Below are positions 19,626 to 29,030 of a stretch of 64,000 bases of DNA, piece by piece (the stretch's first letter is position 1; the number at the start of each line of letters is the position of its first letter). The stretch comes from Reyranella sp. Its GTDB lineage: Bacteria; Pseudomonadota; Alphaproteobacteria; Reyranellales; Reyranellaceae. Where the stretch lies: NCBI GenBank assembly GCA_022844015.1, contig JALHMO010000005.1, positions 1 to 64,000 of the forward strand, read 5' to 3'. Below the pieces are notes generated by a model. That model searched no databases, was not told the origin of the DNA, and saw only the letters and a program-made list of their open reading frames with translations. The position numbers were made by a program, and so were the translations under genes.

Positions 19626-20513
19626 ATGCCGCGATCCACGTGGAAGGGCTACCTCAAGCTGTCGCTCGTCTCCTGTGCAGTGGCGCTCTACACCGCTACC
19701 TCGACGTCGGAGCGCGTGTCGTTCAACACCTTGAACCGCAAGACGGGCAACCGCCTGAAGCAGAACCTCGTCGATTCGGTGAGCGGCGAGCCGGTCGACA
19801 CGGCCGACCGCGTCAAGGGCTACCAGGTCAGCAAGGGACAGTATGTCCTCGTCGAGGATTCCGACCTCGAGGGCCTGAAGATCGACAGCACCAAGACCAT
19901 CGAGATCGAGACGTTCGTCCCGCAGGCCGAGGTCGACCAGATCTATCTCGACAGCCCCTACTATCTCGCGCCCGACGACAAGGTCGCCGAGGAGGCTTTC
20001 GCCGTCATTCGCGACGCCATGATGCGCAAGGAGATGGTCGGCATCGGCCGCGTCGTGCTGAACCGGCGCGAGCGCATGCTCATGCTCGAGCCGCGCGGCA
20101 AGGGCATGCTGGCGACGACGCTGCGCTATCCCTACGAGGTCAGGCAGGACGGCGAGTACTTCGCCGACATCACCGACGTGAAGCTGCCCGCCGAGATGCT
20201 CGACATCGCCCAGGAGATCATCGGCCGCAAGTCGGGACACTTCGAGCCCGACAAGTTCACCGATCGCTACGAGGAAGCCGTCGTCGGCATGCTGCGCGCC
20301 AAGCAGGCCGGCCAAGCCTTCGCCATGCCCGAAGCCGAGGCACCGGCCAACGTCGTCAACATCATGGACGCGCTGAAGCGCAGCCTGGAGGCGGAAGGAG
20401 CGGATGCCGGTGCGATCCGCCGGCCGCGCGCCCCGAGCAAGAAGGCGGCCGAGGCACCGGCCGCAGCTGCCCAGCCGGCGCGCAAGCCGAAAGCGCGCAA
20501 GGCCGCCCGCTGA
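19626..20513 (+). CDS. ku: Ku protein, non-homologous end joining
   Basis: Bacterial Ku homologue of 295 residues, which would form a homodimeric ring on DNA ends and recruit LigD. The core is clear: STWKGYLKLSLVSCAVALY at the start, FNTLNRKTGNRLKQN, YVLVEDSDLEGLKI, and YYLAPDDKVAEEAFAVIRDAM. The C-terminal 50 residues are lysine, alanine and proline rich (RKPKARKAAR), a tail thought to bind DNA and LigD. The ATG at 19626 fits the family start. The next gene follows 15 bases downstream, and ligD lies 3.3 kb away on the same strand. Confidence 0.96.
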   Translation: MPRSTWKGYLKLSLVSCAVALYTATSTSERVSFNTLNRKTGNRLKQNLVDSVSGEPVDTADRVKGYQVSKGQYVLVEDSDLEGLKIDSTKTIEIETFVPQAEVDQIYLDSPYYLAPDDKVAEEAFAVIRDAMMRKEMVGIGRVVLNRRERMLMLEPRGKGMLATTLRYPYEVRQDGEYFADITDVKLPAEMLDIAQEIIGRKSGHFEPDKFTDRYEEAVVGMLRAKQAGQAFAMPEAEAPANVVNIMDALKRSLEAEGADAGAIRRPRAPSKKAAEAPAAAAQPARKPKARKAAR

Positions 20514-20528: not shown

Positions 20529-21623
20529 TTGCCTCTCGCCGGACAGACACTTCACCTCGTTGGCCGCATCCACGGCCTGACGCGGCGACGCCTCGAGCAG
20601 CTGGTGCTGAGCCGCGGCGGCAAGCTCGCGCCCCGGCCCTCCAATCGCGTGACGATCGTCGCTTTCGGCCATTCGTCGGTCGCCCAGGCGCTCGATGACG
20701 GCCGGGTGAAGCTGCCGCCGGGATTGCCGCCGGCCGCAGCGTTGATCAGCGAGAATGTGCTGCGCCGCCATCTTGGATTGCTCGAGCCCCCGCCGGAGGT
20801 CGAGCGCGGCATGGCGCGCGCGGAGATCGAGCGGCTGGCCGGCCTCTCCCCCAATCTGCTCTCGTGCCTGGTGCTGTTCGACGTGCTGGAGCCGGTCGAC
20901 GAACGCTTCGCTTACCGCGACCTCGTGGCGGCGCGCGAGACCGCGCGCCTCCTGAAGCGCGGCGTCGCCCTGGGCGACGTGCTCGTCGCTTCGGTCGCGC
21001 TCCGCCGGCGCGGCAGCCATCTGGCCGAGGCGCGGCTTACCGAAGGTCCGGCGGGCGAGCTGGTGCGCGAGATCGGCGGCCAGCTCGCCGATCTCAGCGG
21101 CCAGCTCACCATGCGCCTGGAGCAGACGGCGCGCAGCCTCGACGACCTGCTGGTCGAGGCTGAGGAGGCCGCGGAGCGCGGCGATCTCGCCGCCGCCGAA
21201 AGCCTCTATGCGACGGCGATGCGCGCCGATGCCGCCGATCCGGTGCTGCCCTTCAACCTCGGCAACGTGTTCCAGTCGCAGGGCCGCACACCCGAGGCGA
21301 AGATCGCCTGGCAAATTGCGGTGGCCCGCGACCCCGCGTTCGCCGAGGCCTGGTACAATCTCGCTCTGACGGCGGAGGACGAGAAGCAGAGCGATCTCGC
21401 CGTGGCCGAGTACCGCCGGGCCGTGCAGGCCCAGCCCGACTACGCCGACGCATACTTCAACCTGGCGCTGCTGCTCACCAGGCTCGACCGCTGCGCCGAG
21501 GCGCTGGCGACCTGGGAGCGCTTTCTCGAGCTCGAGCCCTCCTCGCGACACGCCGGCACCGCGCAGAAGGCGATCGCCCTCTGCCGCATGCGCCTGCAGC
21601 AGGAGCGTGCCCAGACGGGGTGA
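20529..21623 (+). CDS. BRCT-like / MerR-like / TPR protein linked to ku
   Basis: Protein of 364 residues in three parts. Residues 1-60 (HLVGRIHGLTRRRLEQLVLS then RGGKLA) look like a BRCT domain. Residues 100-160 (LSPNLLSCLVLFDVLEPV, FAYRDLVAARETARLL) look like a MerR-type helix-turn-helix. Residues 215-350 are tetratricopeptide repeats (GDLAAAESLYATAM, AEAWYNLALTAEDE, ADAYFNLALLL). The start is TTG at 20529 behind GGGAGG, five bases away; no nearby ATG keeps the BRCT-like start. It is 15 bases after ku and almost certainly co-transcribed. A role in DNA-end repair is suggested only by context; domain calls are by eye. Confidence 0.72.
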   Translation: MPLAGQTLHLVGRIHGLTRRRLEQLVLSRGGKLAPRPSNRVTIVAFGHSSVAQALDDGRVKLPPGLPPAAALISENVLRRHLGLLEPPPEVERGMARAEIERLAGLSPNLLSCLVLFDVLEPVDERFAYRDLVAARETARLLKRGVALGDVLVASVALRRRGSHLAEARLTEGPAGELVREIGGQLADLSGQLTMRLEQTARSLDDLLVEAEEAAERGDLAAAESLYATAMRADAADPVLPFNLGNVFQSQGRTPEAKIAWQIAVARDPAFAEAWYNLALTAEDEKQSDLAVAEYRRAVQAQPDYADAYFNLALLLTRLDRCAEALATWERFLELEPSSRHAGTAQKAIALCRMRLQQERAQTG

Positions 21624-23597: not shown

Positions 23598-23765
23598 GTT
23601 CCCCCGTGCATTCTCGTTCGATCCAACCTGGCCAAGCGAGCATTCGCTCCCGGCGGTGCGAGAGATCGATCAAACAGTCGCGCATTGTCACTGGCAATCG
23701 AACAGTGGCGGTGCGTCAATCCGCACGGGGTGGCATCCGCATCAAGCATCCCCTACCCTGCCGCC

Positions 23766-26700
23766 GTGGCCAAATCGCTGGACACCTACAGCGCCAAGCG
23801 CGACTTCTCGAAGACGCCTGAGCCGCCCGCACGCACCGGCAGCACGACCGCGGGCAACGCCTACGTCGTCCAGAAGCACGCCGCCCGGCGCCTGCACTAC
23901 GATTTTCGCCTCGAGCTCGACGGCGTGATGAAGAGCTGGGCGGTGCCGGAAGGCCCGAGCCTGATCGCCGGCAAGAAGCGGCTCGCCGTGCATGTCGAGG
24001 ATCATCCGCTGGAGTACGCGGGCTTCGAGGGCGTCATCCCGCCGGGCCAGTACGGCAGCGGCACGGTGATGATCTGGGATCGCGGCACGTGGATCCCCGA
24101 TTTCGATCCCGCGTTCGGCTACCGCAAGGGCCATCTCAAGTTCCGGCTCGACGGCCAGAAGCTCAAGGGCCAATGGCATCTCGTGCGCATGGCGAAGAAG
24201 CCGCGCGAGAAGCAGGAGGCGTGGCTGCTCTTCAAGTCAGACGACGCGGCGGCGCGTCCCGCCGATGCCTTGGACATCCTCGACGACAAGCCGAACTCGG
24301 CCGCGACCGGTCGCACCCTGGAAGCGATCGCGCGTGACCAGGATCGCGTCTGGGCGTCGGGCCAGGGCGAGGTCACGGAGCCGGCTAAGAAGCGCCGGCG
24401 ACGCAAGCCCGTCATCGATCCGGCGACGCTCGCCAAGGCGAAGGCCGGTGCGCTGCCCGGCTTCATCGAGCCGAGCCTGCCGTCGCCGACCGACAGGGCA
24501 CCCTCGGGCCGCAGCTGGCTGCACGAGATCAAGCACGACGGCTATCGCCTGCAGGCGCATCTGGAGAACGGCCGCGTCAGGCTGTTCAGTCGCCAGGGGC
24601 TCGACTGGACCGAGCGCTTCCCGACCGTCGCGCGGCTGTTCGCCAACCTGCCGGCGAAGTTCGCCATCATCGACGGCGAGGTGGTGGTCCACACCGAAGC
24701 CGGTATCGCGAGCTTCGCGGCGCTGGTCGACGCGCTGAAGAATGGCAGCGGCGACATGGCGTTCTATGCCTTCGATCTGCTCTATCTCGACGGCTTCGAT
24801 CTGCGCGACACGCCGCTTGGCGACCGCAAGGCGACGCTCGCGCGGCTGCTGGCCAAGGCCGACGACCCGACTCGCCTGCGCTACAGCGATCACATTGCGG
24901 GCGACGGCGATGCGGTGTTCCGGCACGCCTCCCGGCTGGGCCTCGAGGGCATCATCTCGAAGATGGAGGCCTCGCCTTACCGCTCGGGCCGGGTGAAGAC
25001 GTGGCTCAAGGTGAAGTCGAGCGCGACCGACAGCTTCGTGATCGCAGGCTATGTCCCCTCGACCGTCGACAAGGCGGCTGTCTCGGCGCTGGTGCTCGGC
25101 GAGTACGCCGGCAACAAGCTTGTGCCGGCCGGCCACGTCGGGTCGGGCTTCACGGTGGCGATCGCACGCGAGCTGCGGCAGCGGCTCGAGCCGTTGCGCA
25201 CCGTCACGCCGCCGCTCGAGGATGAGACGGCGGACGCCAAGGGCGCGCGCTGGGTCCAGCCCGTGCTGTCGGCAGAGGTCGAGTATCGCGGGCGCACCGG
25301 CGGCGGGCTGATCCGTCACGCCGTGTTTCGCGAGATCGTCGAGGGCAAGGCTCCGCCGCGTCAGGCCGAGGCGAGCGAGCGCGAGCCCCGAAGCAAGGAC
25401 GAGGGCAAGAGCAAAGCCAAGGACAGGGGCAGGGCAAGCGACGACACGGCGCTGCCGGTACGGCTGACCAATCCGGGGCGCCTGCTGTGGCCAGAGCAGG
25501 GCATCACCAAGCAGGGCCTGGCCGAGTTCCATGCCGAGATCGCCGACTGGATCCTGCCGCACATCGTCGGCCGGCCGCTCAGCCTGCTGCGCTGTCCCGA
25601 AGGCATCGCCCAGCAATGCTTCTTCCAGAAGCACGCCTGGGCTGGCCTGGGCAGCGCGGTGCGCCAGGTCGCGGTGCCCAACGACGCGCAGCCGATGCTG
25701 GTCGTCGACGACCTCGCGGGCCTGCTCGCGCTAGTCCAGGCGAGCGTGCTCGAGATCCATCCCTGGGGCGCCCGGGCCGACCGGCCAGAGCTGCCCGACC
25801 GCGTGACCATCGACCTCGATCCCGACGATGCCGTGCCGTGGCAACGGGTGATCGAGGCGGCCCTCGAGGTCCGCCGGCGCCTCCGGGCGAGCGGGCTCGA
25901 GAGCTTCGTCAAGACGACCGGCGGCAAGGGCCTGCACGTGGTGTTCCCGCTGACCCCGAAGGCCGACTGGGACAGCATCAAGGCATTCGCCCAGTCGATC
26001 GCCGCGACCATGGCGGCCGACCAGCCGAAGCTCTACACCGACAACATGGCCAAGAGCGGCCGCCGCGGCCGCATCTATGTCGACTACCTGCGCAACACCA
26101 TGGGCGCCACCGCCGTCGGCGCCTACTCGCCGCGCGCCCGCGACGGCGCGCCCGTCTCGGTTCCGCTCGACTGGGACGAGCTCGGCCCCGACATCCGCGC
26201 CAATCACTTCACTGTCCTCAACCTGCCCAACCGCCTCGCCTTTCTCGATCGCGATCCCTGGCACGGTTTCGCCGCGCTGAAGCAGACCCTGCCGGCCACA
26301 GCCACCAAGTCGCAGGAGCGCAATGCCGCCGCGCCGTCGAAGGCCGCTCTCGCCGCCTACTGGAAGCAGGTCGGCAAGAAGGCACTGGTCCATCTCGCCC
26401 GCCGACCGCTCGACCTCGTGCCCCACGCCCCGTTGGGCGCGCTGCCCAAGGCGGTGCAGCGGGTCGCGGTCGGCGACGGCCATCGCCTGTGGATCGACAG
26501 CATCGACGGCCTGCTCGCACTGGCCGCGATTGGCGCGATCGAGCTCCATCCATGGAACGTCACGATCGATGATCCCGACCATCCCGACCTGCTCGTGTTC
26601 GCGATCGCTGCCGACAAGGGCAATGACTGGCAGCGAACCGTGGCGACGGCGCTCAGCCTGCGCGCGCTGCTGCAGGCGGAAGGCCTGGAGAGCTGGCCCA

Positions 26701-26984
26701 AGCTCAGTGGCGGCCAAGAGCTGCACGTGATGGTGCCGATCGAGCCGGAGCTCAGCTGGCGGGAGGCCCTTCGCTACAGCAGGGAAATCGCCGGCCGGCT
26801 GGCCGATGCCGCAGTGGATTGCCGCTACAACGCGCGCGACGCCGCGGCCATCGGCGCCTTCTCGCCGCGCGCCCTGCCCGGCGTGCCGATCGCCGCTCCG
26901 CTTGACTGGGATCGACTGCAGAGCGGCGTCGATCCGGCCGGCTTCACGCTGCAGCACCCCCAGGTGGCACGAAAGAAAGCGTGA
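23766..26984 (+). CDS. ligD: DNA ligase D with a second, degenerate polymerase domain
   Basis: Multifunctional end-joining ligase of 1,072 residues; the family is usually 800-900. Order: phosphoesterase domain (VVQKHAARRLHYDFRLEL, H38; HVEDHPLEYAGFEG), ATP-dependent ligase domain with adenylated lysine K256 in KHDGYR, then an intact primase-polymerase domain from about residue 563 with metal aspartates D683 and D685 (TIDLDPDD) and TTGGKGLHVVFPL. A second polymerase-like domain runs from about residue 860 to the end (HPWNVTIDDPDHPD, LSGGQELHVMVPI, IGAFSPRALPG, PLDWDRL); there the two aspartates are A946 and A948 (FAIAAD). Start GTG 23766 gives the normal SLDTYSAKRDFSKTPEP N-terminus. Works with the Ku protein encoded upstream. 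Confidence 0.95.
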   Translation: MAKSLDTYSAKRDFSKTPEPPARTGSTTAGNAYVVQKHAARRLHYDFRLELDGVMKSWAVPEGPSLIAGKKRLAVHVEDHPLEYAGFEGVIPPGQYGSGTVMIWDRGTWIPDFDPAFGYRKGHLKFRLDGQKLKGQWHLVRMAKKPREKQEAWLLFKSDDAAARPADALDILDDKPNSAATGRTLEAIARDQDRVWASGQGEVTEPAKKRRRRKPVIDPATLAKAKAGALPGFIEPSLPSPTDRAPSGRSWLHEIKHDGYRLQAHLENGRVRLFSRQGLDWTERFPTVARLFANLPAKFAIIDGEVVVHTEAGIASFAALVDALKNGSGDMAFYAFDLLYLDGFDLRDTPLGDRKATLARLLAKADDPTRLRYSDHIAGDGDAVFRHASRLGLEGIISKMEASPYRSGRVKTWLKVKSSATDSFVIAGYVPSTVDKAAVSALVLGEYAGNKLVPAGHVGSGFTVAIARELRQRLEPLRTVTPPLEDETADAKGARWVQPVLSAEVEYRGRTGGGLIRHAVFREIVEGKAPPRQAEASEREPRSKDEGKSKAKDRGRASDDTALPVRLTNPGRLLWPEQGITKQGLAEFHAEIADWILPHIVGRPLSLLRCPEGIAQQCFFQKHAWAGLGSAVRQVAVPNDAQPMLVVDDLAGLLALVQASVLEIHPWGARADRPELPDRVTIDLDPDDAVPWQRVIEAALEVRRRLRASGLESFVKTTGGKGLHVVFPLTPKADWDSIKAFAQSIAATMAADQPKLYTDNMAKSGRRGRIYVDYLRNTMGATAVGAYSPRARDGAPVSVPLDWDELGPDIRANHFTVLNLPNRLAFLDRDPWHGFAALKQTLPATATKSQERNAAAPSKAALAAYWKQVGKKALVHLARRPLDLVPHAPLGALPKAVQRVAVGDGHRLWIDSIDGLLALAAIGAIELHPWNVTIDDPDHPDLLVFAIAADKGNDWQRTVATALSLRALLQAEGLESWPKLSGGQELHVMVPIEPELSWREALRYSREIAGRLADAAVDCRYNARDAAAIGAFSPRALPGVPIAAPLDWDRLQSGVDPAGFTLQHPQVARKKA

Positions 26985-28289: not shown

Positions 28290-29030
28290 ATGGGCGGCAA
28301 GATCTATGTCGGCGTCGGCGGCTGGACCTTCGAGCCATGGCGCGGGACGTTCTATCCCGAGGGCCTCGCCCACAAGCGCGAGCTCGAGCACGCCAGCCGC
28401 AAGCTCACCTCGATCGAGATCAATGGCACCTATTACTCGAGCTTCAAGCCCGCGAGCTGGGCCAAATGGCGTGACGAGACGCCCGAGGGCTTCGTCTTCG
28501 CCATGAAGGCATCGCGCTTCTGCACCAACCGCCGCGTTCTCGCCGAAGCGGGCGAATCGGTGCAGCGCTACGTGAGCCAGGGCCTGGTGGAGCTGCGCGA
28601 CCGGCTCGGCCCGATCAACTGGCAGTTCATGGCCAGCAAGAAGTTCGACCCCGAGGATATCGACGCCTTCCTGAAGCTGCTGCCCCGCCAGGCCGGCAAG
28701 CTGCCTCTGCGCCACGCGCTGGAGGTGCGCCATCCGAGCTTCGGCGATCCGCGATTCTACGATCTTGCGCGCAAGCACAACGTCGCCATCATCCACGCCG
28801 AGGGCGACGACGATTTCCCGACCATCGACGAGCCGACCGCCGACTTCACCTATGCCCGCCTGATGGGCTCGCAGGACACGCCGAAGGCCGGCTTCAAGCC
28901 GGCCGCGCTCGACGCCTATGCCAAGCAGGCCAGGAAATGGGCCAAGCGCGGCGACGTGTTCCTCTATTTCATCTCCGGCGCGAAGGTGCGCAATCCCGCC
29001 GCGGCACAGGCACTGCTCGAGCGGCTGTGA
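28290..29030 (+). CDS. DUF72 domain protein (YecE-like)
   Basis: Protein of 246 residues with the DUF72/YecE TIM-barrel signature: IYVGVGGWTFEPWRGTFYPEG at the start (GGW/F then WRGTFYPE), then SIEINGTYYSSFKPASWAKW, FVFAMKASRFCTN, GPINWQF, and the late ALEVRHPSF. The ATG at 28290 fits exactly. The family is widespread and of unsettled function. It is monocistronic. Confidence 0.93.
   Translation: MGGKIYVGVGGWTFEPWRGTFYPEGLAHKRELEHASRKLTSIEINGTYYSSFKPASWAKWRDETPEGFVFAMKASRFCTNRRVLAEAGESVQRYVSQGLVELRDRLGPINWQFMASKKFDPEDIDAFLKLLPRQAGKLPLRHALEVRHPSFGDPRFYDLARKHNVAIIHAEGDDDFPTIDEPTADFTYARLMGSQDTPKAGFKPAALDAYAKQARKWAKRGDVFLYFISGAKVRNPAAAQALLERL

Follow-up and report, generated by a model that had tools for sequence, protein, structure and literature searches.

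The question raised by this locus is why a LigD, a one-protein repair machine, should carry two polymerase (POL) domains when the second has lost its metal-binding aspartates. The window analysed here is a stretch of 64,000 nucleotides from Reyranella sp. (contig JALHMO010000005.1). Its ligD gene (23766..26984, + strand, GTG start) encodes 1,072 amino acids in the order PE-LIG-POL1-POL2, with zero internal stops in the frame. The start codon is uncertain, as the near relative P0002 starts 12 codons upstream and position 23730 is a possible earlier GTG; this leaves POL2 unaffected. A genome search found no other LigD POL frame in the window's assembly, which is about 83% complete.

The domains all lie on the + strand. 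They are the 3'-phosphoesterase PE (residues 5–160, 23778..24245; TIGR02777, 217 bits); the ATP-dependent ligase LIG (residues 245–530, 24498..25355; TIGR02779 at 241–530, PF01068 and PF04679); the active-type polymerase domain POL1 with D683, D685 and D773 (residues 581–832, 25506..26261; PF21686, 304.5 bits); and POL2, an inactivated polymerase domain traced by its tree to LIG-POL enzymes (residues 855–1062, 26328..26951; PF21686). A first-pass annotation of the window had read the same PE-LIG-POL-POL layout, which is borne out by the NCBIfam and Pfam domains, including the second PF21686 region. With PE, LIG and POL in one chain, matches to PRK05972 (1106 bits, cut-off 895) and TIGR02776 (749 bits, cut-off 373) and a Ku gene in the genome, the tandem-POL protein qualifies as a LigD on all the tests applied, and the second, inactivated POL is what sets it apart. 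No published LigD with two POLs or with a dead POL was found among the titles and abstract openings of open-licence papers.

POL2 belongs to the LigD POL/AEP fold by sequence family and by fold. The last 220 amino acids, searched by themselves, match PF21686 at 123 bits (cut-off 27.4) and five distinct solved LigD or NHEJ-type polymerase sequences, and the predicted fold of POL2 is confident (pLDDT 90.4). POL1 and POL2 align over 222 columns with 34% identity (E 1e-34). The first-pass annotation had the second copy aligning with the first through its whole length; the alignment stands, but only with gaps, since POL2 is without the first ~20 POL residues, the FFQKH block and ~16 residues ahead of VDYLRN. 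It also held that its reading would fall if residues 860–1072 showed no POL alignment, or if the arrangement came from a frameshift or duplication confined to a single genome. Neither is the case: the second PF21686 match and the POL1 alignment are there, and an artefact of one genome is ruled out by 12 genomes and 44 further tandem proteins.

Those proteins come from a search that scored the 8,000 candidates with the most words in common and gave 57 matches: 44 tandem by an overlap rule, seven LIG-POL, P0053 and five others (P0054–P0058). Pfam labels show other POL fusions in this last group, with PF03372 ahead of LigD in P0055 and PF01261 fused to POL, with no ligase label, in P0056 and P0058. 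For residue counts in POL2 we used 45 tandem proteins, 39 of type II (the window's included) and six of type I, leaving out P0053, a tandem protein out of frame in POL2. P0037 was counted as type I; its POL2 has a type I front half and a type II end, a recombinant or a chimeric assembly.

The window's family is represented by 75 genomes. A LigD POL occurs in 50 of them, and 12, spanning two genera, have two POLs in one frame, which leaves 63 without the POL2 domain. A POL2-profile match at E < 1e-65 picks out exactly these 12 carriers; in G032, G056 and G057 a profile match crosses a stop near its end, which we took as the gene's own end. Eight carriers correspond to named records by identical sequence (among them G015, Reyranella soli NBRC 108950, and G072, Reyranella sp. 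CPCC 100927), and among named genomes 9 of 49 loci are tandem (L005–L013). Wider surveys, which are samples rather than censuses and each take in a few family members, found POL in 59 of 385 genomes of the class, where G000 and G071, members of the window's family, were alone in having a second POL in the same frame, and in 97 of 398 of the phylum, where G000 alone had one. One added genome from another family of the order had no second POL in frame. Carriers outside the window's family are possible.

Can POL2 still act as a polymerase? In the window's protein the motif I residues D683-L684-D685 of POL1 stand opposite A946-I947-A948 (26601..26609, + strand), as the first-pass annotation had numbered them. 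The metal aspartates of POL1 are intact in all 45 tandem proteins. In POL2 the first Asp of the DxD is kept in none of the 45, and the second position is Asp in 1 of 39 type II copies and D or E in all six of type I, so the motif I DxD that marks an active AEP is missing. Other parts of the site persist. The motif III Asp (D773 in POL1, D1018 in POL2; 26817..26819, + strand) is D in 39/39 type II copies and N in four of the six type I. The triad that holds the NTP phosphates, equivalent to Ser172, His178 and Arg244, is kept in type II as S/T (39/39), H (32/39, with Gln in 7) and R (39/39); the window's POL2 has S981, H987 and R1035 (26868..26870, + strand). Judged by the known chemistry of the family, POL2 is very unlikely to work as a normal two-metal polymerase.

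POL2 might instead keep a metal-independent chemistry, such as that of an abasic-site lyase. LigD is reported to have a metal-independent 5'-dRP lyase, which maps, however, to LIG (PMC4770248). An AP lyase activity is attributed to the PolDom of Bacillus subtilis LigD, but AP incision by that LigD near recessed 5' ends is described as needing bound Mn and a further ligand (PMC13201618), which POL2 should not hold. We regard a lyase role as highly improbable.

Where, then, did POL2 come from? The first-pass annotation spoke of a tandem polymerase domain; if that is taken to mean a duplicate of POL1, the trees do not support it. Seven of the search matches are separate LIG-POL proteins (P0046–P0052, two named Mesorhizobium) with intact metal aspartates; their POLs have DLD and (I/L)DYLRN in 7/7. 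In a tree of 77 rows, our selection from the available sequences, POL2 and the LIG-POL POLs form one group (100/100), while POL1 falls in a separate group (100/97) that includes, among others, LigD POLs from Methylobacteriaceae. Support for POL2 as a single clade is just 88/63. Long branches that meet prompted a warning from the tree program in two places, L115 with the POL2/LIG-POL group and P0055 with P0057. A tree constrained to hold POL1 and POL2 together is 223 log units worse (p-AU 2.8e-64), which rejects an internal tandem duplicate of POL1. Since POL2 groups with the LIG-POL POLs and the constrained tree is rejected, POL2 was captured by fusion. The linker is like that of the LIG-POL enzymes in part: NI(L/M)QLLPDA precedes POL in 7/7 LIG-POL proteins, and a close form precedes POL2 in 5 of 45 tandem proteins (P0037, P0041, P0043, P0044 and P0045), the window's own being without it.

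Tree and linker show that, in an ancestor within the family, the POL of a separate two-domain LIG-POL enzyme was joined to the C-terminal end of a full PE-LIG-POL LigD. The added POL lost the first metal Asp, as in all copies seen, and most copies also lost the second metal Asp, the Phe-Phe/Lys wedge and loop 2. That a fusion and a loss of polymerase catalysis took place we hold to be almost certain.

A domain captured and disarmed could be a mere passenger, functionless and slowly decaying. POL2 does evolve faster than POL1 (mean identity 69% versus 87% over 741 pairs), its deletions are stepwise, and the metagenomic P0053 is out of frame in POL2. Yet 48 positions are at least 95% conserved across the 39 type II copies, the predicted fold is a confident one, and POL2 shares a frame with POL1 across the 12 carriers, which span two genera, although this is partly by choice as carriers were found as such frames. 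Pooled Nei-Gojobori omega, calculated on the close group of 7 of the 12 loci, is 0.234 (0.171–0.300) for POL2, 0.180 (0.130–0.232) for LIG and 0.091 (0.061–0.124) for POL1. By these values POL2 is under less constraint than POL1 and about as much as LIG. Over all 66 pairs of the 12 loci, POL2 omega spans 0.16 to 0.83, the highest value (L006/L058) being unsafe on account of composition and distance; the frames used here were cut from stop to stop, so their freedom from stops carries no independent weight. An upper bound of 0.30 on the pooled value rejects simple decay as the main reading, and we give little credence to the passenger. In contrast to the fused copies, one isolated, unfused POL of LIG-POL type, at 2873–3523 of L135 in G036, is apparently broken by a stop.

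Since the fold is kept, as predicted, and the sequence is constrained, POL2 should have a non-catalytic job; this is a strong inference, and we think a selected role of this kind highly probable. The first-pass annotation had also proposed a non-catalytic role, the natural reading given the lost motif I aspartates, the conservation of POL2 beyond the window's genome and the purifying selection.

The first candidate for such a job is holding DNA. POL2 could be a second holder of DNA ends, a pseudo-partner that takes the place of the second LigD in the POL-POL synaptic pair. Crystal structures of Mycobacterium tuberculosis POL are reported to show POL domains paired over a break (PMC8656161), and type II copies keep, besides the Ser172, His178 and Arg244 equivalents that may form a phosphate site, the Lys26 equivalent (K in 36/39). 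Against this, the other elements expected for DNA synapsis, namely Asn13/Lys16 of the 5'-phosphate pocket, the Phe63/64-Lys66 wedge and loop 2 with R220, are absent in 39/39 type II copies. A caveat applies to Lys16: its equivalent is already Gln in 7/7 LIG-POL POLs, as aligned, so that change predates the fusion. Mean net charge is −0.8 for type II POL2, −4.7 for type I and +4.7 for the LIG-POL POLs; it does not decide the matter, because the active-type POL1 is, at −4.4, as acidic as POL2. A role in synapsis is thus weakened by the loss of several DNA-touching parts, although the kept triad could still hold a phosphate, and we consider the pseudo-partner unlikely. The DNA-binding module suggested in the first-pass annotation is weakened likewise for the usual POL surfaces.

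A second candidate is a role in cis, in which POL2 would lie against POL1 or LIG, to stabilise or gate them, with no outside partner. The covalent fusion beside POL1, and selection about as strong as on LIG, agree with it. A model of POL1 with POL2 is poor (pLDDT 57, pTM 0.40, 12 rows) and uninformative on packing, so it lends the cis role nothing usable, and in ordinary LigDs of the family POL has no such companion. We think this role fairly unlikely.

The third candidate is docking, and here the neighbourhood of ligD is informative. The ku gene (295 amino acids, 19626..20513, + strand), the sole Ku found in the ~83% complete assembly, lies ~3.3 kb upstream of ligD on the same strand. Ku is upstream on the same contig and strand in 10 of the 12 carriers, about 3 to 20 kb off; in G032 and G071 it is on a different contig from the POL2-bearing LigD. 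In the Ku tree the 12 carriers share a single clade (98/97); the Ku next to ordinary LigDs (four genomes, 99/97) and the Ku next to LIG-POL fall outside it. The window's Ku type (80–100% identical) occurs in 16 of 75 family genomes, that is in 12/12 carriers and 4/63 non-carriers, and every other family Ku match is at most 48% identical to the window's Ku. This distribution supports a link between POL2 and Ku and also limits it: the POL2-bearing LigD goes with one Ku type, yet that Ku can occur without POL2.

Sixteen bases after ku begins a TPR-repeat gene (20529..21623, + strand) with a weak BRCT-like N-terminus (sub-threshold, E 0.022). It occurs in 16 of 75 family genomes, precisely those that have the Ku type, and adjoins Ku in 16/16, which makes its product a possible third partner of the repair system, a membership inferred from this company. 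The four non-carriers, G034, G036, G040 and G042, keep both the Ku type and this gene with no POL2-bearing LigD in the assembly, through loss or assembly gaps. G056 (L113, L114) holds several parallel NHEJ sets: besides the tandem LigD it has four Ku genes, an ordinary LigD with Ku next to it and two LIG-POL ligase genes, one with Ku nearby. Downstream of the window's ligD is a DUF72 gene (28290..29030, + strand).

In the docking proposal, the likeliest of these jobs, POL2 would dock LigD on a partner, Ku, or in the complex of Ku with the DNA end, and POL1, PE and LIG would act in turn. Ku is our proposed partner for two reasons: in M. tuberculosis LigD, POL is reported as the likely main site of Ku binding (PMC9638933), and the POL2-bearing LigD is found in the company of a single Ku type. 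Binding of Ku by POL2, one of the options raised in the first-pass annotation, would fit the published POL-Ku contacts. Several observations count against docking. A 2026 AlphaFold model is reported to place the minimal C-terminus of B. subtilis Ku on LIG, not POL (PMC13201618); POL1 alone might already bind Ku, and a second site would then be without explanation; and the faster evolution of POL2, the 63 of 75 family genomes without the domain and the four genomes with this Ku alone point the same way. As a whole, a chimeric LigD with POL2 as its docking domain has, in our judgement, an even chance of being right, and Ku itself as the partner falls just short of that.

Compared with the three-domain LigD in the Pseudomonas-type order PE-LIG-POL, the window's protein has the same PE, LIG and POL1 motifs, with Ku in the genome, and adds a fourth, inactivated C-terminal POL of other origin. 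The two-domain LIG-POL LigD (e.g. Mesorhizobium, P0050, or the two copies in G056) represents the source clade of POL2 and has a like linker motif, but its POL is intact and joined to its own LIG, whereas POL2 is inactivated and sits on another LigD. In the Pol2 subunit of DNA polymerase epsilon, an active polymerase at the N-terminus is reported to be fused to a C-terminal one without catalysis, the inactive half being the one that is essential (PMC7308368; PMC2669801, PMC6265327). This parallel, the closest in logic, lies in joining an active to a dead polymerase and is not one of kinship: Pol epsilon is a B-family enzyme of replication. PriX is an inactivated AEP fold. The archaeal primase is described as an AEP enzyme with the non-catalytic subunits PriL/PriX and has also been implicated in break repair (PMC12019639). 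There the subunits are separate, while here the domain is fused to LigD.

Tentatively, one NHEJ system may have captured the polymerase of another and disarmed it as an assembly domain needed to engage its own Ku, perhaps with the TPR/BRCT-like protein. If true, this would be a bacterial counterpart of the design of Pol epsilon, a LigD with one working and one scaffolding polymerase. LigD is a model for one-protein repair machines, and its coordination with Ku is still debated between a LIG and a POL contact. In POL2 the rest of a POL domain is parted from its chemistry, so that whatever job remains is most likely a non-polymerase one, and POL2 could reveal how a POL domain takes part in recruitment and assembly. 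The graded series from intact LIG-POL POLs, through copies that lack mainly one Asp, to strongly reduced copies is a clear record, with its parallel in Pol epsilon, of an enzyme domain turning structural.
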